From IMG/VR virus record IMGVR_UViG_3300032286_000496, positions 1 through 29,289 of that record: a DNA stretch of 29,289 nucleotides; one strand, 5' to 3'. Origin of the DNA: a virus. The position numbers and the translations under genes are program-made. The notes beneath the pieces were generated by a model. The model was not told the origin of the DNA. It saw nothing but the letters and a program-made list of their open reading frames with translations, and made no database searches. Every line of letters begins with the position of its first letter. Position 1 is the stretch's first letter. Below, piece after piece: positions 1 to 15,924 of the stretch.

Positions 1-108
1 ACTCACGCCCACGCTATTCTAAGTCACGCAAGGTTTGGGAATTGGAAACAACAACAACTTGGACTTGCGAAACACATCAAGAATTGTCAGACCAATAGGA
101 TAAGGTGA
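1..108 (+). CDS. C-terminal fragment of an unrecognised protein
   Basis: The reading frame is open from the first base and ends at TGA 106-108, giving the last 35 residues of a protein whose start lies outside the window. The tail is basic and polar (it ends HIKNCQTNRIR) with one cysteine. I do not recognise the family. The stop is followed after 4 nt by the ATG of the next small gene, whose Shine-Dalgarno AAGGTGA overlaps this stop. That tight packing supports a real gene in a rightward operon of small genes. Confidence 0.5.
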   Translation, partial: THAHAILSHARFGNWKQQQLGLAKHIKNCQTNRIR

Positions 109-112
109 AACT

Positions 113-238
113 ATGAATGATTATGAATACGAAAATGACGTAGAGGTTATCACTAACACTAAGTGTGTTGAATGTGGTGACAAACTTACAGGGTGGGAAA
201 CTACCCTATGTTGTATCTGTGAAGCAATGAGTGAATAA
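113..238 (+). CDS. 41-aa small zinc-ribbon-like protein
   Basis: This is a short gene of 41 codons plus stop. The ATG at 113 is preceded by AAGGTGA at a suitable distance. The product is acidic at its N-terminus and has Cys18-x2-Cys21 and Cys33/Cys34-x-Cys36, a CxxC-x11-CxxC arrangement typical of a one-zinc ribbon. The coding call rests on the ribosome-binding site, tight packing between neighbours and the paired CxxC motifs. Function is unknown. Small zinc-ribbon proteins in phages often act as host-takeover or nucleic-acid-binding factors, but nothing here proves that. Confidence 0.55.
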   Translation: MNDYEYENDVEVITNTKCVECGDKLTGWETTLCCICEAMSE

Positions 239-250
239 GAGGTAATGAAA

Positions 251-433
251 ATGAATGAACTAACACTAGGGCGAAAAGTCCACATCACATACACACAACC
301 ATTCAATGGTGCAGGTGCACCACGTTGGAAGGTAGGCGAGATTGCTAAGGTAACGCCTAAGTGGGTGCTATTGAAAGGGCATAGAGGTGGTTGGCTACCT
401 CGTGAGGGTATCAAAACAATTCAAGATTGGTGA
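251..433 (+). CDS. 60-aa small basic protein, unknown function
   Basis: The product starts MNELTLGRKVHITY and ends IKTIQDW. An in-frame ATG two codons upstream (245) exists, but the Shine-Dalgarno AAGAGGT at 237-243 lies only 1 nt from it and 7 nt from the ATG at 251, so 251 is the better start. The sequence reads as a small beta-rich fold: a KVHITYTQP strand, WKVGEIAKVTPKWVLLK, then GGWLP. This resembles SH3-like small barrels in outline only; no family is recognised. It is the last gene before the terminator at 451-483. Confidence 0.6.
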   Translation: MNELTLGRKVHITYTQPFNGAGAPRWKVGEIAKVTPKWVLLKGHRGGWLPREGIKTIQDW

Positions 434-450
434 TACCCCACAAATAATTC

Positions 451-483
451 TAGTGTGTCCGTATGGGCGCACTATCCTTTTTT
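451..483 (+). terminator. Intrinsic terminator of the leftmost small-gene operon
   Basis: A 10-bp stem (451-460 paired with 465-474, including two G-U pairs) closes a GTAT tetraloop and is followed by a T-rich tract at 478-483. It lies 18 nt past the stop of the 60-aa gene. A wider 8-bp inverted repeat, ATACCCCA at 433-440 and TGGGGTAT at 496-503, encloses the hairpin. Confidence 0.75.
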
Positions 484-553
484 GCGATTACTGTTTGGGG
501 TATGTATCATACATACAAAAAATATATTAACATTTTGCCAAAACTGATTTTAT

Positions 554-571
554 ATGTGACCAAAATCACAT
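554..571. promoter_or_regulatory. CRP/GlxR-like palindrome or weak hairpin
   Basis: ATGTGA (554-559), a 6-nt spacer, then TCACAT (566-571) form a perfect 6-bp inverted repeat. It matches the TGTGA-N6-TCACA layout known for CRP-family regulators, including actinobacterial GlxR. It sits between convergent genes, immediately past the stop of the leftward operon. A simple transcript-end hairpin is therefore equally possible; there is no clear U-tract on either strand. Confidence 0.3.
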
Positions 572-721
572 TTATACGATCAAATTGGTAATTCCGTACA
601 AAATTAAGCCTACAAAAAACAAAATATTAAATTTGGCGGGACTAAAAGGCTCACCTTGCTGCCAATATGTCCATCTTGACACAATATACAGGGTAATATA
701 GAGCAAAATAAAGAGCATCAT
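572..721 (-). CDS. 49-aa putative two-helix membrane protein downstream of thyX
   Basis: This short gene is read leftwards. Its ATG (721-719, with a second in-frame ATG at 718-716) overlaps the TGA of thyX as an ATGA junction, which suggests translational coupling. The product has 49 residues and two hydrophobic stretches, about residues 2-14 (MLFILLYITLYIV) and 31-48 (FNILFFVGLILYGITNLI), joined by a polar, aromatic loop (SRWTYWQQGEPFSPAK). That pattern fits a helical hairpin in the inner membrane. It fills most of what otherwise looks like an intergenic space. Function is unknown; a holin-like or superinfection role would be speculation. Confidence 0.5.
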   Translation of the reverse strand: MMLFILLYITLYIVSRWTYWQQGEPFSPAKFNILFFVGLILYGITNLIV

Positions 722-1419
722 GGTGCTACACGACCATTCTTAATAAACGCTTGATAGGTAATTGGCATCAATTCGGCAAAAATAGCCTCATATTGCTCTG
801 CAACCATTTCAATTTCACGCTGTGGATAACTCGGAAAATGCGAATTTTCATCTTTTGTGCGTAAACTCAAAAAATTCATCAATGCTCTAGCATTCATAGT
901 GACATAAGCACTACTGTAAATATTTAATGGTAAAATCTCACGAGCTACTTCCTTAGCAATACCTAGCTGCAACATAGTAGAATATGCCTCATAACAGTCC
1001 TTAGAGGCGTTTATAAAATTGTTTTGGACAGCATAGTGCTGTTCGGGTGTACCTTCTTCAAAAGTATATTTTCCTGCTTTACCAATTTGAATTAACTTGC
1101 GATCATCGGCGGGAATATAAAATTCTGGGTCAAGAACCTTGTATCGACCAGATTCCTCATTATATGAAGCAATACGATGACGCATATGCTCACGCCATAC
1201 AAAAATGGGGGCTTTGACATAAAATGTGAAATTTGAATGCTCAAATGGTGAACCATGACGTTCACGCATAAGAAAGTTAATTAGCCCAGATAATTCGGGG
1301 GATTCAATGGATGTATTAGCTTGCTCACCTTTAGTAGATACACGGGCAGCAAATGCTACGTCATTATCTGATGCTGAATGTTTAATTAATTCAACAGTCA
1401 TATCACTAGAAAATTTCAC
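718..1419 (-). CDS. thyX: FAD-dependent thymidylate synthase ThyX
   Basis: ThyX makes dTMP from dUMP using methylenetetrahydrofolate, FAD and NADPH, and gives phage DNA replication its own thymidylate supply. The signature RHRxxSxNxxSxR is present as RHRIASYNEESGR (about residues 80-92), and the substrate-site HGSPFEH lies near residue 55. The frame extends upstream to an ATG at 1458, but I place the start at GTG 1419-1417: a clean GGAGG lies 8 nt upstream, and this GTG overlaps the TGA of a small upstream gene. The product is then 233 aa, normal for the family. It lies in a leftward operon of tiny overlapping genes and pairs functionally with the class II ribonucleotide reductase encoded to the right. 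Confidence 0.95.
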   Translation of the reverse strand: MKFSSDMTVELIKHSASDNDVAFAARVSTKGEQANTSIESPELSGLINFLMRERHGSPFEHSNFTFYVKAPIFVWREHMRHRIASYNEESGRYKVLDPEFYIPADDRKLIQIGKAGKYTFEEGTPEQHYAVQNNFINASKDCYEAYSTMLQLGIAKEVAREILPLNIYSSAYVTMNARALMNFLSLRTKDENSHFPSYPQREIEMVAEQYEAIFAELMPITYQAFIKNGRVAP

Positions 1420-1517
1420 GATACATGCCTCCAAGCATGGTAAATAGCCAACCAACACAAAGTTGGAGCAATAACATATACGGTAAAGAACTGAATTAAG
1501 CGTTTAATTATAGCCAC
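1416..1517 (-). CDS. 33-aa putative single-span membrane peptide upstream of thyX
   Basis: A GTG at 1517-1515 opens 33 codons ending at TGA 1418-1416. The stop overlaps the thyX GTG, and the start overlaps the end of the preceding 87-aa gene. The peptide has one hydrophobic segment (residues about 7-26, LIQFFTVYVIAPTLCWLAIY) followed by a polar end, HAWRHVS. An AAGGA lies about 11 nt before the GTG. Overlapping junctions at both ends and the transmembrane-like segment make chance less likely, but with 33 codons the call stays tentative. It could instead be a translational-coupling leader for thyX. Confidence 0.4.
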   Translation of the reverse strand: MAIIKRLIQFFTVYVIAPTLCWLAIYHAWRHVS

Positions 1518-1767
1518 GAACCATCTTATCCTTAAAGTCAGAAATCTGTTTCAAAATTTCGGGGGTTTTGAGAGAAGCATCCATATTCTCTAATCTAGTT
1601 AAATCCTGACATACATTAGCATGCTCATCAAAGCGTTCGAAAGACTTTTTATCAATAGGAATGATTACATTCATTGAATATGTCTTACAATGTGGACAAC
1701 TTATCTTACCTACACGATAAGATTGCATTTTTCTAGGTTTGTCAGTAAATTCAATTACAGGATTCAT
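1504..1767 (-). CDS. 87-aa protein with one CxxC-x21-HxxxC module
   Basis: This is a small protein with a zinc-finger-like ligand set, Cys24-x2-Cys27-x21-His49-x3-Cys53, followed by a charged helical tail (residues 55-87). The same spacing occurs twice in the neighbouring 104-aa protein, so the two genes are likely related by duplication. The ATG overlaps the stop of the upstream gene (ATGA), and the upstream purine run AGAGAGAAGA can serve as the ribosome-binding site. The CPHC motif and spacing suggest a treble-clef or C2HC-type zinc site, which could bind nucleic acid or a host protein. No named family is recognised. Confidence 0.7.
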   Translation of the reverse strand: MNPVIEFTDKPRKMQSYRVGKISCPHCKTYSMNVIIPIDKKSFERFDEHANVCQDLTRLENMDASLKTPEILKQISDFKDKMVRGYN

Positions 1768-2078
1768 AATTCTTCTCTCTTTTTACAGTTGTTTAGATGC
1801 TTAGTATAGGATATATTGGCACTATCTGTCAAGGGTAATTGACAAAGCATTTTAAATTCAAGACAGAATGGGCATACAATAATTCTCACTTTATCATTTA
1901 TGTAGTCATCTGTCCAATGATCAGGTTTACAATCTATTAGGTGATTCTCAATTTCTTCAAGTTGTTTATAATTAAAAAACAAATTAGCCATAACATTCCA
2001 GTCTTTACATTTTTTACATTTAAATACTACAACATGACCAAATGCTGGATCATTATATTTTTCAAATTTAATCATCAT
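1764..2078 (-). CDS. 104-aa protein with two tandem CxxC-x21-HxxxC modules
   Basis: Two modules follow one another: Cys21-x2-Cys24-x21-His46-x3-Cys50, and Cys69-x2-Cys72-x21-His94-x3-Cys98. Their ligand spacing is identical to each other and to the single module in the next gene. Each has a hydrophobic aromatic strand after CxxC and an amphipathic helix before HxxxC. Two ATGs are adjacent (2078 and 2075), both overlapping the end of the 65-68-aa gene upstream. Metal binding is inferred from the ligand pattern. The biological target is unknown. Confidence 0.7.
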   Translation of the reverse strand: MMIKFEKYNDPAFGHVVVFKCKKCKDWNVMANLFFNYKQLEEIENHLIDCKPDHWTDDYINDKVRIIVCPFCLEFKMLCQLPLTDSANISYTKHLNNCKKREEL

Positions 2079-2265
2079 CTAGTATTAGGGCGGGATCTGG
2101 AGACAGGACCTTTCCTGACTCATGCAAAGAAACCAACTCTGATAACTTATCCCTATCAGGCACTATAAGAGCTAATAAGTCATAGATACGCAATAACTGA
2201 ATATACATACCACCTATAATTTCATATAGTGGTTGTAAGTCAGAATTTAGGTCTTCATTCGCCAT
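2068..2265 (-). CDS. 65-aa small acidic protein, unknown function
   Basis: I start this gene at the ATG giving MANEDLNSDLQ (2265). An in-frame ATG three codons upstream (2274) is possible; neither has a strong Shine-Dalgarno, and both lie inside the end of the preceding gene, so coupling is likely. The product is helical-looking, with a hydrophobic centre (EIIGGMYIQLLRIYDLLALIV), and ends in an acidic tail (LILDDD). It has no metal-ligand pattern. No family is recognised. Confidence 0.55.
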   Translation of the reverse strand: MANEDLNSDLQPLYEIIGGMYIQLLRIYDLLALIVPDRDKLSELVSLHESGKVLSPDPALILDDD

Positions 2266-2485
2266 CTGGCACATCCGTTCTTGATATAATATCTTTCATT
2301 GAGTTGTATAAGTTTAACCCAGGTTTCTTCCTGAATGAGCATTCCGTACAAATTAAAACAATTTGGTCTTCATCCTCAAGCCTGGGAAATAGACCCAAAT
2401 GCTCATCACTTGTCTGACATTTGATATCTGGAACTAGACCCTGAGTTGCCAAAAAATAGTACCTGGAGAAAACTGCAAAATTCAT
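2255..2485 (-). CDS. 76-aa CxxC protein, first gene of the leftward operon
   Basis: The product has Cys23, His29 and Cys46-x2-Cys49 (ICTEC), a possible zinc site, within an acidic protein. It does not share the x21 spacing of the two downstream finger-like genes. It is the first gene after the divergent promoter region. TATAAT lies 4 nt before its ATG, but the better promoter (TTGACA-17 nt-TACAAT) sits about 95 nt upstream, which would give a long AT-rich leader. No convincing Shine-Dalgarno is present. Function is unknown. Confidence 0.55.
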   Translation of the reverse strand: MNFAVFSRYYFLATQGLVPDIKCQTSDEHLGLFPRLEDEDQIVLICTECSFRKKPGLNLYNSMKDIISRTDVPDGE

Positions 2486-2577
2486 TAGTATTATATTCTT
2501 TTCTTATATTAGTTATATAATTCTTTTAATTATATCTATTATATATATTATATATTATTTATATACACACAGATGTA

Positions 2578-2606
2578 ATTGTAGAAATTAATTCCAATGT
2601 TGTCAA
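2578..2606 (-). promoter_or_regulatory. Leftward promoter for the thyX operon
   Basis: On the minus strand a perfect -35 TTGACA (2606-2601) is followed after exactly 17 nt by TACAAT (2583-2578). Transcription would start near 2571 and run leftwards into the 76-aa gene through a leader of roughly 85 nt that is nearly all A/T. The -35 overlaps five bases of the rightward promoter's -35. Confidence 0.65.
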
Positions 2607-2628
2607 ATTAAATACAAATTGCTATAAT
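2600..2628 (+). promoter_or_regulatory. Rightward promoter giving a leaderless glycosyltransferase mRNA
   Basis: TTGTCA (2600-2605), a 17-nt spacer and TATAAT (2623-2628) form a near-consensus sigma-70/SigA promoter. Only 6 nt separate the -10 box from the ATG at 2635, so transcription should start at or next to the A of the start codon. There is no Shine-Dalgarno. Leaderless mRNAs of this geometry are common in Actinobacteria. Confidence 0.75.
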
Positions 2629-2634
2629 CAAGCA

Positions 2635-3627
2635 ATGGAGATTTCTTTTACGGGTGCCCCCGAATATATGGCAACGGTGGTGGGATTTGGTAATGCCTCT
2701 TGGCATATCTGGAACACTTTTCGTAAACAAGGCATTGATTGCCTTGTTGACGCAGACACCAATATTGGAATCTCTTTCACCCAACCCCACGAATATAAAT
2801 TCAAAGAAGACCAATACAAGATTGGTTATACCCCTTGGGAATCTACCGACTTTATGCCCGACTGGAAAGAAAACTTCGACAGATGCGATGAAATCTGGAC
2901 AACATCCAATTTTAACAGAATGCTATTCGAAAAACAACTAGATCGGGAAGTTTTTGTATATATGCATGGAATTGACCACGCATATGCGCCCAAGAAGCGA
3001 AAATATCTTTTAAATCAGCCTTTTACTTTTTTGCATATTGGTGAGCCGTTTGCCAGAAAAGATGGGCAACTCGTGGTCGATACCTTTATTCGGCTTTATG
3101 GCAATAATCCCAATTTCCGCCTAATTATGAAATGCACAGGTTCTCATACGCTAAAAGTACAAGAACCTAATGGATATAACTGGGATAGCCCAGATAAGTT
3201 CTATTCAAATATTATTCTTAATCAGGAAATTCTCTCAAGCGGAGAAATGCTTACTCTTTACTCCTCGGCTCATTGCTTTGTGTATCCGAGCTGGGGGGAA
3301 GGATTTGGGTTTAATCCATTACAAGCTATGGCTATGGGTATTCCCACAATATCGACTCATGCTTGGGCAGAGTACGCAAATAGAATCACATTGCCACTAG
3401 AATCTTCATGGTCAGATAATCCTTGGCAGATTATTCATCCTGGACAAATGCTTAAGCCAGATGCTGCCCACTTAGAGCAACTTATGTTGGATGTGGTAAA
3501 CGACTATGGCAAATATAGCGATTCTGCTTTTAAAAACTCATTTAAAATTCACGAAGAGTACGATTGGGACCTAGTTAGCAAACCTGCAATCGGAAAATTA
3601 AAAAAAATCCAAAAGTCTAGATTTTAG
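2635..3627 (+). CDS. GT4-like (GT-B fold) glycosyltransferase
   Basis: This is a 330-aa protein with the GT-B layout of retaining GT4 enzymes. It has an N-terminal acceptor half with G-F-G-N-A-S near residues 18-23, then the linker strand FTFLHIGEPFARKDGQ, where Arg141/Lys142 match the donor-phosphate-binding basic pair. The nucleotide-sugar motif YPSWGEGFGFNPLQAMAMG lies near residues 217-235. The usual E-x7-E appears as Glu222-x7-Gln230, so the second acidic residue is replaced. The start is the ATG 6 nt behind a -10 box, with no Shine-Dalgarno. Possible substrates are modified DNA bases, virion proteins or host surface glycans; the sequence does not decide. It is followed by nrdJ after about 50 nt. 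Confidence 0.8.
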   Translation: MEISFTGAPEYMATVVGFGNASWHIWNTFRKQGIDCLVDADTNIGISFTQPHEYKFKEDQYKIGYTPWESTDFMPDWKENFDRCDEIWTTSNFNRMLFEKQLDREVFVYMHGIDHAYAPKKRKYLLNQPFTFLHIGEPFARKDGQLVVDTFIRLYGNNPNFRLIMKCTGSHTLKVQEPNGYNWDSPDKFYSNIILNQEILSSGEMLTLYSSAHCFVYPSWGEGFGFNPLQAMAMGIPTISTHAWAEYANRITLPLESSWSDNPWQIIHPGQMLKPDAAHLEQLMLDVVNDYGKYSDSAFKNSFKIHEEYDWDLVSKPAIGKLKKIQKSRF

Positions 3628-3637
3628 AATTTTTAAA

Positions 3638-3646
3638 TGGTACACT
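3638..3646 (+). promoter_or_regulatory. Possible extended -10 promoter before nrdJ
   Basis: TGGTACACT resembles the TGGTATAAT extended -10 element found upstream of the structural genes, but the hexamer matches poorly and no T-rich -35 aligns at the position seen in the other copies. It lies 35 nt before the nrdJ start. It may be a weak internal promoter or a chance match. Confidence 0.25.
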
Positions 3647-3681
3647 AGAAACCTAAATCCAAAAATTGAAGAGGTATACAC

Positions 3682-5610
3682 ATGAGCGGGATCGAAAATC
3701 CGTATGAAAATTTTATTGCCCTAAGCAGATATGCTAGATGGCTAGAGAACGAAAATAGAAGAGAAACTTGGTCAGAGACTGTGGATCGTTATTTCGATCA
3801 CATGACAAAGCATTTAAATAATAAGCATGAGTATGTCCCAGATTCAAAGCTCCTTGCAGAGTTAAAGCAATTCGTATTCGACAGAAATGTTATGCCGTCT
3901 ATGCGTTCCGTTATGACCGCAGGTTCCGCATTGGAACGAGATAATGTGGCAGGATACAACTGTTCGTTTCTTCCTGTAGACTCACTTCGTTCATTCGATG
4001 AGGCTATGTACATTCTTATGTGTGGAACAGGGGTAGGTTTCTCCGTAGAGCATATGTATGTGGACAAACTGCCAATTGTTAACGAGCATTTTGAAAAGAC
4101 AGATACGGTCATTATTGTAGAAGACTCTAAGGCTGGTTGGGCAAAAGCCCTTCGTGAACTCCTCGCTCTTTTGTATCAAGGTCAGATTCCTGCAATCGAC
4201 ATTTCAAAGGTACGCCCAGCGGGTGCTAGACTTAAGACCTTTGGTGGTCGTGCATCAGGTCCACAGCCATTAGTAAACCTCTTTGACTTTGCAATAAAAA
4301 CAATTCGTGGAGCAGCAGGTCGCAAACTTAAGCCACTTGAGGCACACGACATTATGTGTAAGATTGGCGAAGTAGTTGTAGTTGGTGGAGTTCGCCGTTC
4401 TGCAATGATTTCCCTATCTGACTTGAATGATCACGATATGGCAACTGCCAAGGCAGGGGCATGGTGGGAAAACACTCCACAACGTGCACTTTCTAACAAC
4501 TCTGTAGCATATACAGCAAAGCCAGAGATGAATGATTTCATCGCCGAATGGAAGTCACTATATGACTCAAAGTCTGGAGAGCGTGGCATTTACAATGTTA
4601 AGGCTGCACAGGCTCAGGCTGCAAAATATGGTCGCAGAGATGAAAGCATCCACTATGGAACAAATCCATGCTCCGAGATCATTCTTCGCCCATACCAGTT
4701 CTGTAATCTATCTGAGGTTATCATTCGTGAAGAAGACTCAGTTAAAGATATTAAGCGTAAGGTAGAACTTGCAACCATCCTTGGTACATGGCAGTCAACA
4801 CTTACAGACTTTAAGTATCTTCGCAAGATTTGGAAAGACAATACAGAGGAAGAGCGTCTACTTGGCGTTTCAATCACTGGTCAGTTTGGTCATTCATTGC
4901 TTTCTGGAAATGAAGGAATTGAAGAACTAGAAAAGGTGCTTAACAACCTTAGACTTATTGCTGTAAGCACAAATGTGGCGGAAGCTAATAAGATTGGAAT
5001 CAATCCATCAGCAGCAATTACTTGTGTTAAGCCTTCTGGAACAGTATCCCAGCTAACTGGTGTATCTTCGGGTATGCATCCTTGGCATAGCGAATACTAT
5101 GTTCGTACTGTTCGTGGAGACAAGAAGGATCCACTTACACAGTTCCTTGCAGACTCTGGAATTCATGCAGAAGATGATTTTATGAAGCCACAGGACACCA
5201 CAGTATTTAGTTTCCCGATTAAGGCACCCAAGGGAGCAATTACTCGTAAAGATTTAACTGCGACCCAACACCTTGATGTATGGCTAACATATCAAAGAGC
5301 CTGGTGTGAGCATAAGCCTTCTATTACAGTTTCTGTTCGTGAAGAAGAGTGGATGGAAGTTGGGGCATGGGTGTTCAAACACTTCGATGAACTATCTGGA
5401 GTTTCTTTCTTGCCACACTCTGATCATACATACAAGCAAGCTCCTTATCAAGAAGTTTCTAAAGAAGAGTATGATGAATTTGTCAACAAGATGCCAAAGA
5501 ATATTGTCTGGGAAAATCTTTCACTTTATGAAACCGAAGATAGCACTACAGGAACTCAGGCTCTTGCTTGTGTATCTGGCGAATGTGATATTGTAGATAT
5601 TGGAAAGTAA
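3682..5610 (+). CDS. nrdJ: Class II (adenosylcobalamin-dependent) ribonucleoside-triphosphate reductase
   Basis: The enzyme reduces ribonucleotides to deoxyribonucleotides using adenosylcobalamin to generate a thiyl radical. The family's catalytic residues are visible: Cys94 in GYNCSFLPV; Asn328, Cys330 and Glu332 in NPCSE; and Cys341, 11 residues after the radical cysteine, as in the Lactobacillus enzyme. A C-terminal Cys630-x4-Cys635 pair would serve re-reduction by thioredoxin. Other hallmarks are CGTGVGFS, GGRASGPQPL, VVVGGVRRSAM and KPSGTVSQLTGVSSG. At 642 aa it is shorter than the 739-aa Lactobacillus protein, as is usual for phage forms. GAAGAGGT precedes the ATG at a good distance. 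It works with ThyX in precursor supply and depends on host or environmental B12. Confidence 0.95.
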   Translation: MSGIENPYENFIALSRYARWLENENRRETWSETVDRYFDHMTKHLNNKHEYVPDSKLLAELKQFVFDRNVMPSMRSVMTAGSALERDNVAGYNCSFLPVDSLRSFDEAMYILMCGTGVGFSVEHMYVDKLPIVNEHFEKTDTVIIVEDSKAGWAKALRELLALLYQGQIPAIDISKVRPAGARLKTFGGRASGPQPLVNLFDFAIKTIRGAAGRKLKPLEAHDIMCKIGEVVVVGGVRRSAMISLSDLNDHDMATAKAGAWWENTPQRALSNNSVAYTAKPEMNDFIAEWKSLYDSKSGERGIYNVKAAQAQAAKYGRRDESIHYGTNPCSEIILRPYQFCNLSEVIIREEDSVKDIKRKVELATILGTWQSTLTDFKYLRKIWKDNTEEERLLGVSITGQFGHSLLSGNEGIEELEKVLNNLRLIAVSTNVAEANKIGINPSAAITCVKPSGTVSQLTGVSSGMHPWHSEYYVRTVRGDKKDPLTQFLADSGIHAEDDFMKPQDTTVFSFPIKAPKGAITRKDLTATQHLDVWLTYQRAWCEHKPSITVSVREEEWMEVGAWVFKHFDELSGVSFLPHSDHTYKQAPYQEVSKEEYDEFVNKMPKNIVWENLSLYETEDSTTGTQALACVSGECDIVDIGK

Positions 5611-5629
5611 AGTATAATTAATTTAGACC

Positions 5630-5660
5630 ACCCGCCTCCTCTGGGGGCGGGTTTTCTTTT
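5630..5660 (+). terminator. Strong intrinsic terminator after nrdJ
   Basis: A 9-bp G+C-rich stem (5631-5639 with 5643-5651, one G-U pair) closes a 3-nt loop and is followed by TTTTCTTTT (5652-5660). It lies 20 nt past the nrdJ stop. The T-tract also occupies the -35 position of the promoter driving the fibre genes. Confidence 0.92.
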
Positions 5661-5681
5661 AGGGCATTAAGGTGGTATAAT
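5652..5681 (+). promoter_or_regulatory. Structural promoter 1 (fibre block), extended -10 TGGTATAAT
   Basis: TATAAT (5676-5681) is preceded directly by TGG, giving an extended -10. A T-rich -35-like element (TTTTCT, 5652-5657) lies 18 nt upstream and is the terminator's T-tract. Exactly 24 nt separate the hairpin from the -10 hexamer. The predicted leader to the ATG at 5713 is about 25 nt. Confidence 0.65.
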
Positions 5682-5712
5682 TTAGTTATAAATCTTATGG
5701 AATGGTTGTGGC

Positions 5713-6093
5713 ATGACGAAAAAAAGCTTTGAAATTATTCAGGGGGATTCATTCCAAATATCTGTTGTTTTTGAAAATCCCTCAAATTCCCCAATAAACC
5801 TTTCTGGTTATACATCATATTGTGAAGTTAGAGACCAGCCAGGTGGTCAAATTTTATGCGCCACAGCATCATTGTCATCAATCCCCTACTCTGGATCATT
5901 TTCAGGAGATGGTATTTATGGAAATAGCGCAAGCACTGGTCAGCTATTTTTAAACCTAGTTCCTTCAAAAACACTTAACTTTAATTATCCAAGATCATCT
6001 ATTCAATGGAGAATTACTAGCCCATCTGGAGAAAATACAACTTTGGTAGATGGATGGTTAATTGTGGATGCAGGTACTATCCCAAATGCCTGA
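5713..6093 (+). CDS. 126-aa beta-sandwich virion protein at the head of the fibre block
   Basis: The product begins with SFEIIQGDSFQISVVFENPSNSPINLSGYT, the 'QGDTF... pI(D/N)LtGYt' pattern seen at the N-terminus of many phage baseplate and tail-tip accessory proteins of BppU-like or immunoglobulin-like fold. It ends with WRITSPSGENTTLVDGWLIVDAG, consistent with closing beta strands. It has no signal peptide or membrane segment. It is the first gene after structural promoter 1, and its end overlaps the start of the large fibre gene, so the two are probably co-translated and may interact. The upstream Shine-Dalgarno is weak (GGAATGG). Confidence 0.65.
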   Translation: MTKKSFEIIQGDSFQISVVFENPSNSPINLSGYTSYCEVRDQPGGQILCATASLSSIPYSGSFSGDGIYGNSASTGQLFLNLVPSKTLNFNYPRSSIQWRITSPSGENTTLVDGWLIVDAGTIPNA

Positions 6094-9000
6094 TAATATT
6101 GTTATTCAAACTAACCCAAAAGTAATTACGGTAACTCAGCAAAGCAACAACATTGTTGTTTCCGCTCCTGGACCACAAGGTCCAACTGGACAAATGATTA
6201 TTGCAAATATTCCAACCGTATCTCCAATTATTAATACTGGCTCAAGTATAGCCTTTGACCAAGTTGCACAATATATTACTTTGGATACAAGATACGCAAA
6301 GATCACGGGTTCTGTGCAATATTCTGCATCGTCAGGATCTGCACTATATTCTACAAATGCTGGTTCTGCTACATATGCTACAAATTCAGGAAGTTCTTTA
6401 TATTCTAATTTATCAGCATCTACATCTCAAACCAATTTTGCAACATTATTTATTGCTGGTTCTGCAGTTGCTACACAATCTTATGTAAATAATGCATCTG
6501 TTCTATTTGCGGTATTATCAAGTTCCGCCCAGTATGCATCAAGTGCTGGATATGCAACAAATTCAGGAAGTTCAGACTATGCAACAAACTCTAGTTCTGC
6601 AACATATGCAGCATCTGCAAGTTTTGCTACAAACTCTGGAAGTTCACTGTTTGCAACAAATGCAACAAATTCATCAAGTGCAAACTTTGCAACATCGGCG
6701 GGCAACTCAAATACGACATCCCAAACAGACTTTAATCCATTAACTATTTCTGGGTCTGCAGTTGCAACTCAAGATTATGTAAACTCTCAAGATTTTCAAA
6801 AATCAACAGGCTCTGTTGCATTTGCAACCAATTCAGGTTCATCATCATATGCAACTAATTCAGGCAATTCTTTAACTACCAGCCAAACATCTTTTAACAA
6901 TATAAATATTACTGCATCTACACAATCTACAAATACCGTAAACGGAGCACTTGTTGTCGCTGGTGGAATTGGAACTGGTGATAGTGTAAATATTGGCGGG
7001 AACCTAAATGTTACTGGAAATATATTCATGTCGGGAAGTGCATTCACCGTTGGTGCTTCTAATTTAGAGGTAATAGATTCTATAATCTTACTTTCCGCCT
7101 CAAATTATTACTCAGACCTCCTTGACATTGGTTTCTATGGAGCATACGGTTCTACAGGTCATGATAGTGCATCAAATCATTATCACACAGGTTTAGTAAG
7201 AGATCATTTAGATGATAAATGGAAACTATTCTCATCAGGCTCAGAAACATCACCAAATACTATTGATTTTAATACCGCCACATATGACACATTAAAACTA
7301 GGTACAATTGAAGTTTCGTCTAGTGCTCAGGTTGATAATCTTAATGCCCAATATCTGGCGGGAATTGGAAGTGCATCCTATGCTAGACTAAATCAAGCAC
7401 AAACATTTATTGGAACACAAACATTTAATAACTTTATTCAAGCTTACGGAAATCAACTTCAATCTGGAAAAATGACATTGGGACAAAACACGTTTGATAA
7501 CAACAATATGCTTACCGTTACATCTAATGCTAGTACAAATGTTGGTATTTCTGTCAAGAGTTCTGCAAGCCAAACAGCTGACAATTTTCAGGTATTGGAC
7601 TCTTCTTCTAATTTAAGATTTAGGATTTTATCTTCTGGAAGAACAGTTATTCAATCTTCCAATATAACCAATCCACAACTTTTAATTCAAAATATTAGCA
7701 CAAATCAATCTGGAGATTTTATTCAGTTCCAAAACTTATCGGCATCTATTCTGGCAGGTGTAACAGCAAGCGGTCAAATATATACAGGGTCAAATACACC
7801 ACTTTATATTTCTAGTATTCCCGCTCAACTTTCAGTTAGGTCTGCTGCATCTACCGCAACAACGATATTAGCACAATCAGCAAGTGGTCAAACAACAAAC
7901 ATATACGAAGCATTGAATCAAGACGGAACTTCTGTTTTTAGAGTTAGGGCGGGAGGAAATCTTGGTCTCGGAAGTTTGATAACGGGAGTTGGATTTGGCT
8001 TAAATATGAATCTTATGGGTGCAGGAACCATTGGAATGGTTACTCGGGGATACACAGGTCAAACAGCAGACCTACAACAATTCCAAGATAATAATGCAAA
8101 TATTTTGGCAGGTGTAACAGCAAGTGGTCAATTCTATACTGGCTTAACATCACCAATTGTTAGTGGAAGTTCAGCTCAATTATCAGTTCAAACATCGGGA
8201 TCTACAACTCCTGGAATTATTGTTAGAATGTCTGCATCGCAAACTTCAACTGCGTACCCGCTTGAAATTGAAGATTCATTAGGAACAACAAAATCTTATT
8301 TGTCAACATCTGGTGGTGGTCATTTCACCGCACAACTTAGTGCTACATCAGCATTGACGGCGGGAACTTCCAACTATCTGACTGCTGCCCTAAGCGTTAT
8401 CCCATTAAATGATTCAGTTAATGGTGCGGTAATTAAGGGATTCTCCGCTTCGCAGACCGCTGACTTGCAACAGTGGCAAAAATCCGATAGCACTGTCTTG
8501 AGCCGTGTCACTAGCATTGGGTCAGTTATTGCACCTTACCTAGTCGCAGGTCCATCTGGCATTGCCTCCACCAGACTTTATGTGAACCCTAGTGCTGCTG
8601 AAGTTGGTGCCGTAATTCGTGGTTCTGCATCTCAAACTGCCAATATTCAAGAATGGCAGGACTCAAATGGAAGTGCTTTATTAAGAATTAATTCAAGGGG
8701 TTTTATTTCTGGTTTAGGAAGCTATGGCTTTCTTACGGGTCAAAGCCAGTTTGATCCTAATGGAAATCTGACTGTTAACTTTTTTACAGCATTACAAGGA
8801 ACAGTTTTAAGATCTTCTGCAAGTACATCTATTCCAGTTACAGTAAGGGGATCTGCATCTCAAACCGCCAACTTACAAGAATGGCAATCTTCAGATACTA
8901 CAATTATGGCTAGAGTCACTAATATCGGGGAGATTGTAACATCTACAACCGTTTATGCCAACGGAGTACAAAATAATAATAGTTACTGGTCATTCAACAA

Positions 9001-10738
9001 TAATGGCGTTGGTCAAATTGCCGCAAGGAATGCCACAAACATTCCACTTACGCTTAAGGGTTCTGCTTCTCAAACTGCCAACTTACAAGAATGGCAGGAC
9101 TCGGCTGGAGCAGTGGTTGCGGGTATTAATAATGTTGGTGGCTATTTTAATACAAATCGTCTTGCAATTGGATTTAGTTCTGTTCAACTTGGAGCTAAAG
9201 CAATTATTGGAGTTAGTAGTTCCACAGATATTGGTTTGATTGTCAGGGGTACTGCTTCTCAAACAGAAGATTTGCAAGAATGGCAAAATTCATCAGGGTC
9301 TGCTCTTGCAGGTGTGAATGCATCTGGTCAACTATATACAGGTTCGGCGGGACCTGTCACAAACTTGGCGGGAACTACACAATCCCAACTTTCAGCAGTA
9401 AGTTCTGCATCTAACATAATCCCTCTTATTGTTAGAAGACCAGCAACTGGAACGGCAAACACTTTTGAAATACAGCAATCAGCAGGAACTCCATATGTTT
9501 GGGTTGACCAAAATATGGTTTTAAATTCAATAGCAGCCTTTAACGCTAGACCAGCCACTATTGATGCAACACCAATTAATTCTTATCCTACAACAATAAA
9601 TCATCGTGCGGATTTGTTCAGAGTTGCAGATAGCACTAACGCAACTACAAGAGCAGCCTTTAATGCTGCTGGTCAAATATATACGGGTTCGGCGCAACCA
9701 ATTCTAACTACCGTATCTACAATTTCATCAATTAGTGCTTCGTCTTTAACTGCATCAGTTACTACTACCACCGCATCTCACAACTTATCAGTTGGTCAAA
9801 TTGTTTATATCACTGGTGCATCACCAAACGAATATAATGGAAACTTTGCTGTAAACGCTATTATTTCTTCAAGTGCGTATTTAATTTCTAAATCATCTGC
9901 ATTTGCTACATCAAGTGCTGTAACTCCAGGAACTGTTTCACTACCCGCCCAAATATCAGTTGTAACTGCTTCCGCTAATACTCCTGGAATTCTTGTAAAA
10001 TATTCAGCAAGTCAAACAGCATTTCCCTTTGCTATATATGACAGTGTAAATAGCGTTAAATTTTATGTAAATCAATTTGGAAATGCTATAGCAAACAGTG
10101 GCATACAAGTTACTGGAAATATAGGGTCATTTCCCGTAGCAGGAGCAATGGTTGTTAACCCAGCAAACGCAACAAGTAAGGGTATTGTCTTTAAGGCTAA
10201 TGCTTCGGCAACAGCCAACATGCTTGAAGTTATGGATTCGTCAAACAATATCTTGTATGGTGTAAATCCTATTGGTCAAATATTCTCAGGATCGGCAGGA
10301 CCACTGACAAATATTTCTGGAAGTGCTGCCCAATTATCAGTAGTAACATCAGGATCTACAACTCCAGGAATTATTGTTAGGGCTGCATCAAGCCAGGTTG
10401 AAGATTATCAACAATGGCAAGATTCAACGGGCACTATCAAGGCAAGAGTAAGCAGCAATGGTGAAGTGTTTGGCACTGGTGTCAGAACTTTGAACACATC
10501 TTGCAGACTTCTTGAAGAAAGTGCTGGTGGCAATCTTCAACTGAAGAAATCAACCTCAGCAGTAGCACTTCCAGGAACAGTAGATTTTGCCAAACTGTAC
10601 CTTCGTGACGGCACTGTTCCTGGCACATTGAAACTTGTTGTTCGTGCTGGCACTGCTGGCGCAGAAACGCCAATATTAGACAATATTGATCAAACAAATG
10701 GTATACTTAGTGGAACAATTGATGGAGGAAGTGCATAA
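6086..10738 (+). CDS. 1,550-aa modular tail-fibre protein
   Basis: I choose the ATG at 6086 (MPDNIVIQTNPKV), which overlaps the upstream TGA and has AGGT 10 nt before it. Upstream TTG and ATG codons in frame are less likely. After an N-terminal segment with a short collagen-like GPQGPTGQ come low-complexity repeats of the type YATNSGSS (about residues 75-270) and a trimer-type neck. At least 13 modules of about 60-70 aa then follow, built around SASQTANLQEWQDSxGxxxAxVxxxG. An inserted beta domain (ASHNLSVGQIVYITGA) lies near residue 1230. A conserved C-terminal region (LYLRDGTVPGTLKLVVRAGTAGAETPILDNI) ends the protein. It is probably a trimeric receptor-binding fibre. Repeat number may vary between relatives. 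Some modules use noticeably more C/G-ending codons than the rest. Confidence 0.85.
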   Translation: MPDNIVIQTNPKVITVTQQSNNIVVSAPGPQGPTGQMIIANIPTVSPIINTGSSIAFDQVAQYITLDTRYAKITGSVQYSASSGSALYSTNAGSATYATNSGSSLYSNLSASTSQTNFATLFIAGSAVATQSYVNNASVLFAVLSSSAQYASSAGYATNSGSSDYATNSSSATYAASASFATNSGSSLFATNATNSSSANFATSAGNSNTTSQTDFNPLTISGSAVATQDYVNSQDFQKSTGSVAFATNSGSSSYATNSGNSLTTSQTSFNNINITASTQSTNTVNGALVVAGGIGTGDSVNIGGNLNVTGNIFMSGSAFTVGASNLEVIDSIILLSASNYYSDLLDIGFYGAYGSTGHDSASNHYHTGLVRDHLDDKWKLFSSGSETSPNTIDFNTATYDTLKLGTIEVSSSAQVDNLNAQYLAGIGSASYARLNQAQTFIGTQTFNNFIQAYGNQLQSGKMTLGQNTFDNNNMLTVTSNASTNVGISVKSSASQTADNFQVLDSSSNLRFRILSSGRTVIQSSNITNPQLLIQNISTNQSGDFIQFQNLSASILAGVTASGQIYTGSNTPLYISSIPAQLSVRSAASTATTILAQSASGQTTNIYEALNQDGTSVFRVRAGGNLGLGSLITGVGFGLNMNLMGAGTIGMVTRGYTGQTADLQQFQDNNANILAGVTASGQFYTGLTSPIVSGSSAQLSVQTSGSTTPGIIVRMSASQTSTAYPLEIEDSLGTTKSYLSTSGGGHFTAQLSATSALTAGTSNYLTAALSVIPLNDSVNGAVIKGFSASQTADLQQWQKSDSTVLSRVTSIGSVIAPYLVAGPSGIASTRLYVNPSAAEVGAVIRGSASQTANIQEWQDSNGSALLRINSRGFISGLGSYGFLTGQSQFDPNGNLTVNFFTALQGTVLRSSASTSIPVTVRGSASQTANLQEWQSSDTTIMARVTNIGEIVTSTTVYANGVQNNNSYWSFNNNGVGQIAARNATNIPLTLKGSASQTANLQEWQDSAGAVVAGINNVGGYFNTNRLAIGFSSVQLGAKAIIGVSSSTDIGLIVRGTASQTEDLQEWQNSSGSALAGVNASGQLYTGSAGPVTNLAGTTQSQLSAVSSASNIIPLIVRRPATGTANTFEIQQSAGTPYVWVDQNMVLNSIAAFNARPATIDATPINSYPTTINHRADLFRVADSTNATTRAAFNAAGQIYTGSAQPILTTVSTISSISASSLTASVTTTTASHNLSVGQIVYITGASPNEYNGNFAVNAIISSSAYLISKSSAFATSSAVTPGTVSLPAQISVVTASANTPGILVKYSASQTAFPFAIYDSVNSVKFYVNQFGNAIANSGIQVTGNIGSFPVAGAMVVNPANATSKGIVFKANASATANMLEVMDSSNNILYGVNPIGQIFSGSAGPLTNISGSAAQLSVVTSGSTTPGIIVRAASSQVEDYQQWQDSTGTIKARVSSNGEVFGTGVRTLNTSCRLLEESAGGNLQLKKSTSAVALPGTVDFAKLYLRDGTVPGTLKLVVRAGTAGAETPILDNIDQTNGILSGTIDGGSA
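6328..6880 (+). repeat. Short Y-A-T-N-S-G-S-S coding repeats in the fibre N-terminus
   Basis: About a dozen copies of an 8-12-residue unit with consensus (S/N)-G-S-(S/A)-x-(Y/F)-A-T-N lie in this stretch, encoded by recurring AT-rich segments such as GCAACAAATTCAGGAAG. Ser, Ala, Thr and Asn dominate. The pattern fits a beta-helical or coiled shaft of a trimeric fibre and is prone to slippage and recombination. Confidence 0.7.
7558..10460 (+). repeat. Tandem fibre modules SASQTANLQEWQ
   Basis: Thirteen to fourteen diverged modules start near 7558, 7880, 8044, 8228, 8430, 8620, 8848, 9056, 9244, 9430, 9590, 10000, 10190 and 10380. Core residues are Arg/Lys-Gly-x-Ala-Ser-Gln-Thr-Ala-x-Leu-Gln-x-Trp-Gln, followed by a Gly turn and V-x-x-x-G-x-x-x-(S/T)-G. 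Nucleotide identity is highest between the copies near 7757 and 8107 (GGTGTAACAGCAAG) and among those at 8620-9110. Confidence 0.8.
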
Positions 10739-12030
10739 TGGCAGTACAAACAACTATTAAACTTAGAAGAGATACAGCAGCTAACTGGGCTTCTGTAAAT
10801 CCCGTCCTTTCGGCGGGAGAACAAGGTCTTGAAACAGACACTAATAGACTTAAAGTAGGAAACGGAACAGCATCCTGGAATAGCATAGGTTATTCAAATC
10901 TTACGCAAACCGACTTTTTACAAACATTCTTTGGATATTCAGCATCTGGATATGAAACTATGCCAAGAGCATTAGCAACAAATACCAGCTTTCATGCAAA
11001 CAATCAAATTTCTTGGACATTATTTACACCATTGAAAACATTTACGGCAAGCACTGTATCAACAATGGCATCCACATCTCGTAGTTCTTATGGGTATATT
11101 TCAAGTTACAAAGGAATTGGAGTTTATCAGGCAGTTCCTGCAATCTCAGCAAACGTCACACTTACTCCACTTGCAGTTACATGGGACAAAGATGATTCTT
11201 TATGGACAATTAGCAATCATGGTCCAGGTCTTACAACAACAACGCTTGCAACATCGGTTGCATCAAACAGCAATAACTTTACCTTAGTTACCTGCACAGG
11301 AACAGGTGCAACATTTACTAATGGACAAACAGTTACAGTTTCTGGAGGAACTGGAGGATTTACATCATTTACTGGTAGGGTAGTGGGTTCTCCAACAGCA
11401 ACAACTTGGATATTACAGGCAACAGGATCTGGTGTTGTAACTGGAACAATGACTGGTGGATCAGCAGTGGGTCTTACATTTGCCACAGGAACTCCTCCAG
11501 CAGTCACAAGTGGATCTGTAGTTGGAGGAACTGGATTTGTGGCATCAGTTAGCATTACTACCGCTTCATCCGCAACCGTATTTGCTGCAGGTCAGTGGTT
11601 ATCAGTAAATGGAGCATCCAATAGTTTTTCTGGATATGTAGCAGAGTCTCCAACACCAACAACTACAGGATTTACACTTATTTGTCCATCCACACTAACA
11701 TCTGGAAGTGTGGGATCTGGAACCATTATTAATGGTGATTCTTTTGGAAGAAATGTTAGACCACTGTTTTCTCCAACGCCAAGCGGTTCTGGGGTAGTAA
11801 CTCCAACGACAGTAACTTTTAATGCGGGAACAACTTATGCTGTAGGATTTTTGATTTCAGCATCTGGAGGAACTGTACAATTCCCAGCTTTGGCAGCAAA
11901 CACAGCAGTGCACAATACTCTATTTTTACCCGTATTAACATCAGGTTTAACAGGTCAAACTACAATTACATCTGCGTCTGTTCAGGGTGGCGGTATTACT
12001 GCAAATGCTGCATGGGCTAGATTAACATAG
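10738..12030 (+). CDS. 430-aa tail-fibre or receptor-binding protein with Mtd-N-like start
   Basis: The N-terminus (MAVQTTIKLRRDTAANWAS, then NPVLSAGEQGLETDTNRLKVGNGTASWNSI) is the classic start of phage fibre proteins annotated as major tropism determinant or hyaluronidase N-terminal domain, a small trimerising attachment module of about 55 aa. The rest is beta-rich. It holds two related domains of roughly 65 aa (about residues 160-225 and 265-325), each with an 'xxFxxGQ-x-(V/L)-(T/S)-V' strand, a Gly/Ser turn and a 'G-x-V-x-x-S-P' segment. The ATG overlaps the last base of the upstream TAA, with GGAGGA 8-9 nt before. It probably attaches beside or on the large fibre and binds the host. Confidence 0.8.
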   Translation: MAVQTTIKLRRDTAANWASVNPVLSAGEQGLETDTNRLKVGNGTASWNSIGYSNLTQTDFLQTFFGYSASGYETMPRALATNTSFHANNQISWTLFTPLKTFTASTVSTMASTSRSSYGYISSYKGIGVYQAVPAISANVTLTPLAVTWDKDDSLWTISNHGPGLTTTTLATSVASNSNNFTLVTCTGTGATFTNGQTVTVSGGTGGFTSFTGRVVGSPTATTWILQATGSGVVTGTMTGGSAVGLTFATGTPPAVTSGSVVGGTGFVASVSITTASSATVFAAGQWLSVNGASNSFSGYVAESPTPTTTGFTLICPSTLTSGSVGSGTIINGDSFGRNVRPLFSPTPSGSGVVTPTTVTFNAGTTYAVGFLISASGGTVQFPALAANTAVHNTLFLPVLTSGLTGQTTITSASVQGGGITANAAWARLT

Positions 12031-12040
12031 AGGTATATAT

Positions 12041-15000
12041 ATGTCATACGACTTAAAAATTCTAAAAGACAATCCAATTGGTTATTGGTCTTTTAACAAC
12101 ACCGCAAACGACCTGACTATAAATGCTAATAATGCTTATAGCAATGATGATGTATTAAATTTAACTCCACTTTCAGCAGGAGATGTTTGGACCAATTCAA
12201 CTGGATCAAATGATCAAGTGCTTGTAGGTCAAAGTTACACGGCTACAGCGTATACAAAAACAACTACTGGAAATAGAAATACCTATATCCGAATTGATTG
12301 GTATAAAAATGACAATAGTCTAATTACCACAAATTCTGGAAGCACTTTATCTGCTAATAATACTAGTTGGACTCAAATTTCTGTTACAGCAACTGCACCA
12401 GCAAGTGCTGTTTATGCAATTACAACAATAACTGTTCAAGGTGCTACAGGAGACACAGATATACAATTTATAAGAGGTGTAGTTTTTAATAATTCCTTAT
12501 TGCCAGTATCTCGTTTTGTTTCTGGATTCAATACAAATTTGTCTAATACAAAAGCTTCTGGTTATTACACATCCCCACCAATTATTGCAAATAGTGGTTC
12601 ATCGTTAAAAATTTTAAATTCATCAAGTGTTGTTATTTCAAATACGGCGGGTAAGTATGAAGTGCTTTCTAAAAACTTTGAAAACAACACATTTGTTGTT
12701 AGTTTTTGGTTCAGCTTAAACAATCAATTAAATGGAAGTGGAAATAACTCATCTCCATACTCAGGAAACAAATTAAATCTATTTAACATTAAGTCTGGCT
12801 CTGTCGTAATTGGAAAAGTGTATTACGATTATTTATCCAATACAATTAGATTTTCAATTACTGGTTCTGGTAATAGCGATGCCTATTATGTTGTTAATGA
12901 TCTAGACAAACAGTTTTATGTTGTTGCAACATACTCAAATCAATCTACGTCAATTGTTGTTAATGGCATTCCTGGAGAAACAGGTTCTGTTTTAGACACA
13001 TCCGCAATGTCTTCTTACTCAAAAGCATCCCTAACTTTTACACTTGATGGATCATCTATTACTGGAACATCCACATTACCGCAAAACTTCTTGGTAAACT
13101 CTTTAGCGTTTTTTAACTACAATTTGAGCCAAGAGCAGATAAAGAGCCATATGCTTTGGGCGGGAAACACAGAAAAACCATTATTCCAAGGAAATCTTTC
13201 AGCAAGTACATCCCTGTTCGACTTCTCTATAGATCCCTCGGAATATGGAACCTATAGGGTTATTTCTGGATTAGATTTTGGAAATCTTGGAACGGTGACT
13301 AACCTGTCTGTAACAAAAAGTGGATTACAGCCTCTTATCATTAATGATAATAATTTTAACAAAGATTACGATAGCACAGCAACCTATTCTATATCCAGCT
13401 CAAGCGGTATAAGTTGGTCTGGGTCGGCTGGGGTAGACTTTACAGAAATTAACAATTACTTTAGCCTAACAAATGGCTTTGTTATTGGTGGAAGTCTATT
13501 TAGAACTGCAGCGAGTACAGCCTATACAGCAAATGGCGGGGAGTATGTGTTTGGAATAAGTAGCGTCAATAACGGCAAGCACCTATTCCTTGAATACAAG
13601 TACGTTAGTTCCAGTTGGCAATACAACTTAAATATTTATGACCCAAGTGATGCTACAACTACAACTTTATTGACAGCGTACAATACCAGTTTTGCAAATG
13701 ATAATTTTGCCTTAAAGATTGATAGTAATTCTATTCAGTTGGAAATCTTAACATCAACATCTGGAAGTAGTGCTAGTGTTTCAACTACAGCCATACCCAA
13801 TTACTTACCGTTGTCTTTGGGAACAAATAGCACACTAACAATCGGAAACTCTTATCATTCTCCAAAAACATTTTTATCTTCAATAAATTATGTTAACCTT
13901 GGAAACTTTTCCATTACAAGCTCAAGTTTGAGATCTATTTATAGTGCAAGTTATTTAACAACACCTATGACCTTTATGTTTGATATGAGTAGTTCAGTCA
14001 ACCCATTCTTTGTTTCACAGTATGGGCGGTGGGAGTTCATAGTTCCTTCATCTAATATTTCAAATTCATACCTACAAGGAACATCGTTTGACTGGAAGTC
14101 TATGGATAACTGTAGAGTTTCTATATCCTATGATGGCGGAACAACATTTTCAACTTTAAATAGGTGTCAAGCAGCAACTGGATATGATCTATCAAAATCC
14201 CCCAAAAACTTAGTGATTGGTGTAGATATCTTTACAAGATATGATATGGATTCAAGTTATCAATCATTTAACAATTTTTCATACGCATTCTACAATGACC
14301 TTGATATTTATTCAGATGCAGAGTATTATAAAATATCAACACCTTCAGATAGAACACTTGCAAACTATATTCCGCAGGTTGTGGATGGTAATATTTTATC
14401 CCGACCAGAAAATTTTGGAATAAGGTTTACGGGAGATTCAAATAAAAGACAGGGATATGGACTGATTACAGTTCCATCAACATCTAGCTACAGAGCAATT
14501 GAATTTTGGTATAGACCAGAATTTACAGTTGGACCTGTTGCAAGAACAAACATTATTCAAAACCCATCATTTGAGTCACAGCCACCACTTGGATATGGAT
14601 GGTTTTCTCAGCCAAACTCTACATCAGCATCTAGAACAAACTCTCAAAGCTATGTTGGCTCATATTCGGCAATCGTTACTGGAAGTTATACATCAACCGA
14701 CTATATGGGAATAAGTGCTCAGACAACAGGCGGAACAAGGTTGCTTGCAAGCCCTGGAGCAACTTATACTTTTTCAGCATACGTTAGGAATATTGACTTA
14801 GGATTACCACTCAATCCTCTAATATATTTTTATGGCTCAGCAGCCACCCCCATATCAATTGTCGCTGGAGCTAGTGTTGTTCCTACTGCTTCTGGATGGA
14901 CAAGGATTTCTGTAACCGCCACAGCACCAGCAAACACAGCATCAATTACTCCAAGAGTTTTCACCGCTAGTCAAGTTTCACCATCATCTCATGGAAAATC

Positions 15001-15582: not shown

Positions 15583-15924
15583 ATGAGTAGAATGAACGTA
15601 ACAGAAATCGATGAAGTCAATTATGGCTTATACCTTTGGGAAATGCCAGGCGGGGCTTTGGTCATGGATGAAGAAGGAAATTATTTAAATATTGCTGCAA
15701 TGAAGGGCGATATTGTAAGAATTAAAAGACTTAAAGATTCTGCAAAATCTTATGGACTTGAGGAAGGAAAGCCAGTATGGTTTTCTGCCCATAGAAGAGT
15801 TACCGATGAAGAATATGAATTGCAGAGACAAAGAATGGAAGTGGGACTCGTTCCAGACGAATTAGATGTTCCTGCCATCAAAGAAGATATCGAACAAAAG
15901 AGAAAATTAGGACTTTATAAATAA
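15583..15924 (+). CDS. 113-aa protein preceding the portal, unknown function
   Basis: This is an acidic and basic mixed protein with an N-terminal beta-like part (YGLYLWEMPGGALVMDEEGNYLNIAAMKGDIVRI) and a helical C-terminal half (TDEEYELQRQRMEVG ... IEQKRKLGLYK). It has no cysteine cluster, signal or membrane segment. The start codon lies 6 nt after a -10 box with no Shine-Dalgarno, so I infer leaderless translation. The stop overlaps the portal ATG (TAATG), implying coupled expression. Location suggests a head or packaging-accessory role. I do not recognise the family, and it does not look like a terminase small subunit. Confidence 0.7.
   Translation: MSRMNVTEIDEVNYGLYLWEMPGGALVMDEEGNYLNIAAMKGDIVRIKRLKDSAKSYGLEEGKPVWFSAHRRVTDEEYELQRQRMEVGLVPDELDVPAIKEDIEQKRKLGLYK

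Follow-up and report, generated by a model that had tools for sequence, protein, structure and literature searches.

Two divergent promoters predicted to share one -35 region at a glycosyltransferase junction of a putative actinobacteriophage

Sequence, spacing and conservation of the promoter pair

The 29,289-base IMG/VR virus record IMGVR_UViG_3300032286_000496 (positions 1-29,289, here called the window) carries a junction from which two genome arms are read in opposite directions, and the question raised by this locus is whether two promoters built on the same -35 letters could act as a switch between them. The original prediction had described an either/or switch between two nucleotide-metabolism arms. 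On the plus strand, a promoter scan identified a -35 box TTGTCA (2600-2605), a spacer of 17 nt and an extended -10 element, TGcTATAAT (2620-2628; hexamer 2623-2628, TG 2620-2621), followed by the six nucleotides CAAGCA and the ATG, at 2635, of a glycosyltransferase gene (GT; 2635-3627, plus strand; Pfam PF13692/PF00534, PHROG 2170). On the minus strand, the box TTGACA (2606-2601) is separated by 17 nt from TACAAT (2583-2578). The two -35 boxes overlap by 5 bp, a common TTGTCAA being read in opposite directions, and the predicted transcription starts, placed 7 nt beyond each -10, lie at 2635 (plus) and 2571 (minus), 64 bp apart. The boxes, both spacers, the 6-nt gap and the five-base overlap had all been predicted exactly to the base; the TGc extension of the plus -10 is an addition to that description.

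Single promoter-like sites mean little in this DNA, since positions 1-15,000 hold 54 of them versus 51.6 expected from shuffles. Sites matching at least 11/12 positions number only three in the same 15 kb: the divergent pair and a minus-strand site at 1832-1803. A pair in which both promoters reach at least 11/12 and share a -35 arose once in 20,000 dinucleotide shuffles of 2486-2634 and in 0/300 shuffles of the whole window. At the laxer threshold of 10/12, such pairs appeared in 0.6% of local shuffles and in 9/300 window shuffles, and the divergent pair is the only one in the real window.

Relatives were collected by GT protein alone, and the best 80 of 370 (46-90% identity) provided 58 distinct upstream sequences, or 59 with the window, of which 57 were scored and two were too short. 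At a GT identity of at least 58%, both promoters were found around one TGTCAA in all nine distinct upstreams (the window, L215-L219 and L221-L223; L220 has the same upstream as L219), with a 5-bp -35 overlap and predicted starts 64-65 bp apart throughout; the shared -35 pair was present in 0/48 other scored rows. L217 and L216 correspond to L053 and L077 of the pattern scan described below, but were found independently by protein. Among the nine close upstreams, the plus -35 reads TTGTCA in seven and GTGTCA in two, whereas the minus TTGACA is found in 9/9. The plus -10 is TATAAT or TATACT in all nine and is preceded by TG in seven; the two GTGTCA rows retain the extended -10, while L222 and L223 are without it. 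The minus -10 reads TACAAT (3/9), TATAAT (4/9) or TATACT (2/9). Over positions 2578-2634 of these nine sequences, majority identity averages 0.94 in the element columns versus 0.66 in the spacers and the 6-nt gap (0.65-0.69 in the spacers alone), a contrast reached in 0/20,000 permutations, in which columns of related sequences are not independent.

The two promoters could in principle be chance promoter-like letters in A+T-rich DNA, as would agree with the overall number of sites in the first 15 kb and with the 10/12 pairs of the shuffled windows. Such an explanation is extremely improbable in view of the conservation in all nine close lineages, the single occurrence in 20,000 shuffles, the contrast between element and spacer columns, and the peak of -10 boxes at 6 nt from start codons described in the next section. 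Because both promoters are found in 9/9 close lineages, the comparison supports a genuine divergent pair built on one -35 region, which by its 5-bp core-element overlap belongs among overlapping divergent promoters.

We also searched IMG/VR for the shared -35 pattern. With the ATG it was found in 60 stretches and without the ATG in at least 120; a control pattern whose minus spacer was set to 12 bp gave 0 and 1, respectively. When 171 matches were read back, 151 lay before gp55 of T4-like cyanophages, six before GT and 14 elsewhere. In four annotated T4-like cyanophages (isolates L211-L214) the gene upstream of gp55 runs in the same direction, so no annotated gene there uses a minus promoter. 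We therefore claim no general enrichment of this architecture in phages. Three T4-like cyanophage contigs of IMG/VR (L035, L052 and L044) show the same two-way pattern before the late sigma gene gp55. In the reverse complement of L043, from 1403, there is an unrelated mirror-symmetric pair built on one common TTGTCAA, in which each of the two divergent genes begins 6 nt beyond its -10. At position 7809 of L129, the shared -35 pattern lies between a minus gene and a small plus gene; the product of this minus gene presumably resembles a transposon TnpB protein.

Host assignment and the predicted leaderless transcript

The genes of the window include portal, protease and head genes, as well as a protein with the N-terminal domain of a major tropism determinant (10738-12030; PF18454). 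Isolate records matching GT number 137, and comprise 127 Streptomyces phages, nine Rhodococcus phages and one Microcystis phage. WhiB was found in 7/17 records searched and psbA in 0/17, which favours the actinophage part of the reading developed below; in the control search of 14 genomes, WhiB matched in Corynebacterium only, and it was not found in the window's own record. A host search of genome contigs gave one match, in a metagenome-assembled genome labelled as a cyanobacterium; it is perhaps a misbinned phage contig and was not used for host assignment. We take the host as actinobacterial and the phage as a low-GC actinobacteriophage.

The plus transcript had been predicted to be leaderless. 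Placed by the spacing from the -10, its start would coincide with the A of the GT start codon (2635), and the distance from the -10 to the start codon is 6 nt in 8/9 close rows, even though the gap itself is variable in sequence (majority 0.63). The first T of TATAAT is located 12 nt before the ATG, again with the same spacing in 8/9, and thus within the range of approximately 10-12 bp that a TANNNT box keeps from the start codon in leaderless genes of Actinobacteria, where such genes are described as exceeding 20% (PMC3160421). The difference from the genes discussed in that source is that we deal here with a phage gene whose start is predicted from sequence alone.

As expected for a leaderless gene, no Shine-Dalgarno match was found before GT in 4/4 phages, while the called genes of the same four phages are preceded by one in 12/29, 60/101, 11/36 and 4/20 cases. 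In this set of 186 genes, 6 nt is the most frequent distance from a -10 box to the start codon (11 genes; the next highest value is 7, at 34 nt). Nine of these 11 genes have extended -10s, versus at most three at every other distance. The 11 genes make up only five families, namely GT and the gene at 15583 in all four phages, and three more genes in the sister contig. In the ninth close lineage, L221, the gap after the -10 measures 26 nt, and a TTG start is preceded, by eye, by AAAGGA. Taken together, the 6-nt spacing, the lack of a Shine-Dalgarno match in the four phages and the 6-nt peak bear out the prediction, and a leaderless GT mRNA is well supported by sequence comparison. GT is thus a promising candidate for an actinophage gene translated without a leader, and in one relative it has apparently changed to a leadered form.

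A second leaderless candidate is the gene at 15583-15924 of the window (PHROG 9394), where TGGTAGAAT is followed by 6 nt and an ATG, with the same spacing in 4/4 phages. In the reverse complement of G001, genes at 16992 and 78005 both carry AAGGTATAATAGATAWATG at their starts, perhaps a second promoter class. The next gene of the plus arm encodes a B12-type ribonucleotide reductase (3682-5610, plus strand; profile matches), and no plus promoter-like site of at least 9/12 was detected ahead of it in 3500-3700.

The minus arm, its leader and thyX

The minus promoter had been said to point into the thyX operon. The direction is as described, but four small ORFs (about 1.1 kb) separate this promoter from thyX downstream, which has another promoter. 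From the junction leftward, all on the minus strand, the arm consists of a gene for a 76-residue protein to which no function was assigned (2255-2485), a 68-residue protein with a weak match to PHROG 12271, of unknown function (2068-2274), two further small proteins (1764-2078 and 1504-1767) and thyX (718-1458; ORF from a GTG, its true start being uncertain; PF02511, E 7.5e-50). The third and fourth proteins carry, respectively, two and one modules of the exact form C-x2-C-x22-H-x3-C, that is, three in 1504-2078; the third has no Pfam or PDB match and the fourth no Pfam match. Overall, Pfam, PHROG (weak at best) and PDB matches gave nothing firm on minus-arm protein functions, and no recognizable repressor was found among the four, the zinc-finger-like modules being the candidates.

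Homologues of the first three genes are present in 8/8 close loci with upstream sequence, window included, and the 1504 homologue in 7/8, L218 offering only 938 upstream bases. thyX, the last minus gene, is present in four close loci (the window, L215, L216 and L217), and in all four a separate near-consensus promoter (TTGACA-18-TATACT or TATAAT; TTGACA-18-TATACT at 1803-1832, minus strand, in the window) precedes the half of the arm running from 1504 to thyX, ending 32-35 nt before the 1504 gene. L218, L219, L222 and L223 keep the promoter pair, and no thyX was found either in the upstream stretch read or in their contigs, one of which has 100,657 bases and all of which may be fragments. In two sister contigs the thyX matches are weak only (33-34% identical).

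These observations weigh against the proposed either/or choice between two arms of nucleotide metabolism. All four phages that carry thyX at this place have a separate promoter for the thyX half, and four close lineages keep the pair in possibly fragmentary contigs where thyX was not found, so the pair is not a dedicated thyX switch. Furthermore, the constant minus-arm genes encode small proteins with no Pfam match, two of them with the CxxC...HxxxC modules, and the first plus gene encodes a glycosyltransferase.

The predicted minus transcript would carry an A+T-rich leader of 86 nt (2486-2571, minus strand), which is more conserved than the genes on both sides. The 92 bases of 2486-2577 have an A+T content of 88% and are identical to L077 at 0.93 and to L053 at 0.83-0.84, versus approximately 0.5-0.6 for the left gene and 0.66 for GT. 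Among the four phages they form a conservation island (0.83-0.97, versus 0.52-0.70 for the left gene and 0.66-0.87 for GT). The conservation of this leader points to selection on more than the promoters; the region may represent selected DNA or a recombination boundary. An RNA structure in the leader was rejected (z -0.22; 81/200 shuffles fold at least as well), and so was a repeated regulon motif, as the 79-kb sister contig, outside the homologous place, repeats none of the 14-mers of 2486-2634. Within the window, two overlapping 14-mers of this region occur one more time, on the opposite strand.

Promoter overlap and its possible consequences

RNA polymerase covers a promoter from about -55 to +20. 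Bound at either promoter, it would extend over the other promoter's -35 box and a large part of its spacer. Exclusion during binding is thus near certain by geometry, and the original proposal that both promoters cannot be bound at once is plausible. Our best reading, to which we give an even chance of being correct, is that two near-consensus promoters compete for polymerase and thereby set the ratio between a leftward arm of small genes and a rightward arm comprising GT, the reductase and structural genes, with no latched switch. Both promoters would probably be read by the main RNA polymerase of the host; one bound polymerase would cover both, and each firing would briefly block the other. 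Unless a regulator acts, competition would set a ratio instead of latching. The rightward RNA would have the A of the GT start codon as its first base and be translated as a leaderless message, and the leftward RNA would carry the 86-nt leader.

Overlapping divergent promoters as such are already known (PMC4207663, PMC7273328), and bidirectional promoters have been found in many bacteria, with competition described as possible (PMC12825309, PMC10268837). In the bidirectional promoters of Warman, Grainger and colleagues, as here, one polymerase cannot serve both divergent starts at once. They differ in having one -10 used both ways and starts 7-25 bp apart (PMC12825309, PMC10268837), whereas our pair has a shared -35, separate -10 boxes and predicted starts 64 bp apart, and thus falls outside that class. 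Five E. coli pairs sharing a -10 are reported to show no competition at basal strength, but to be able to compete once one side is strengthened or activated (PMC12825309). This speaks both against the competition reading and against an either/or switch, as exclusion during one binding event does not amount to a switch. As the two promoters of our pair are near consensus, competition would be likelier than at the basal E. coli pairs. A search of open-licence literature, by title and start of abstract, returned no paper on divergent phage promoters with a shared -35.

A regulated either/or switch, in which a factor of the phage or of the host would give preference to one promoter at a given stage and the polymerase bound there would silence the other, seems improbable. 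The near-consensus promoters on both sides would suit it, a minus-arm protein with the zinc-finger-like modules could be the factor, and pLS20 Pc/Pr is a published switch of this kind, where polymerase is held to bind one of two overlapping divergent promoters at a time (PMC4207663). In that system, the -10 of one promoter lies on the -35 of the other, strengths are unequal and a regulator acts; at our junction no regulator or operator was found, the promoters are similar in strength, and the thyX half has its own promoter. Coordinate control, with the shared -35 as one target of a repressor or activator that turns both arms on or off together, is less probable still. It has a precedent in ddrR/umuDAb of Acinetobacter, whose starts were mapped by 5' RACE and whose adjacent -35 elements lie inside one repressor site covering both promoters (PMC7273328). 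In our case the -35 boxes overlap by 5 bp, no operator was found, the conserved columns are the promoter elements themselves, with spacers well below them, and a search of the sister contig gave no additional copy of the region.

Relatives beyond the close group show a second arrangement at the same junction. In 34 of the 48 other scored rows (among the best 80 of 370 relatives) the divergent promoters also overlap: a plus and a minus extended -10 abut (type TATCA|TGATA), the predicted starts lie at a distance of 31 bp, and the plus transcript would have a leader of 14-27 nt. Two of the 14 rows left over, L224 and L253, contain this motif when inspected by eye, although other sites were used for their score; for the other 12 the scoring gave no overlap of the 31-bp kind. 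In a midpoint-rooted GT tree, where 36 rows were labelled as 31-bp, L224 and L253 included, the shared -35 rows form one clade (100/99) with 31-bp rows on both sides. The simplest reading of this tree is that promoter overlap is older than the shared -35, tentatively so because of the midpoint root, and overlap at the GT junction may outlast a change of geometry. Six loci of a more distant group (L008, L015, L017, L019, L021 and L025) have a clear minus promoter and no good plus promoter, which argues against promoter overlap being universal.

These rows bear on whether the overlap matters at all. Two real promoters could overlap as an inherited compact layout without function, each box being kept for its own gene; each element is indeed conserved as its own promoter needs, and the shared -35 group is one clade, for which a single origin suffices. 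We find this unlikely, as overlap recurs in another geometry in 34/48 rows and the 86-nt leader gives room to separate the promoters. Going further, the selected trait could be mutual blocking itself, kept at the GT-reductase junction in this group of actinophages as the layout changed between abutting extended -10s (31 bp) and a shared -35 (64 bp), with self-exclusion, perhaps tuned by the zinc-finger-like minus-arm proteins, setting arm ratio or timing; we regard this as possible but doubtful. If overlap is selected, the phage would balance two genome arms by polymerase competition, perhaps with no repressor, and the junction would offer two natural geometries, with starts 31 and 64 bp apart, for studying interference set by overlap.

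Ratio-setting competition therefore ranks first, followed by overlap without function and a regulated switch, and then by control from one operator. It is favoured by the shared -35 in 9/9 close lineages versus 0/48 other scored rows, by the column contrast, the shuffles, the 6-nt spacing and the 6-nt peak, by promoters that stay overlapped although the leader leaves room for separation, by the other overlapping pair in 34/48 rows, and by the competition described for overlapping divergent promoters when strong (PMC12825309). Against it stand, besides the basal E. coli promoters, the distant group, the 14/48 rows not scored as 31-bp overlap, the conserved leader and the missing WhiB in the window's record.

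The gene order of the junction extends to the Streptomyces phages Gilson, Kenrey and StarPlatinum (Stanwilliamsviridae), where leftward small genes are likewise followed by one or more rightward GT genes and the ribonucleotide reductase. Unlike the window, these phages showed no shared -35 in the scan, with about 40 nt between their best plus promoter and GT. In StarPlatinum (L296), a plus -10 (TATAAT) and a minus -10 (TACGAT) have 2 bp in common at approximately 2952-2961, which may represent a bidirectional promoter like those already published.
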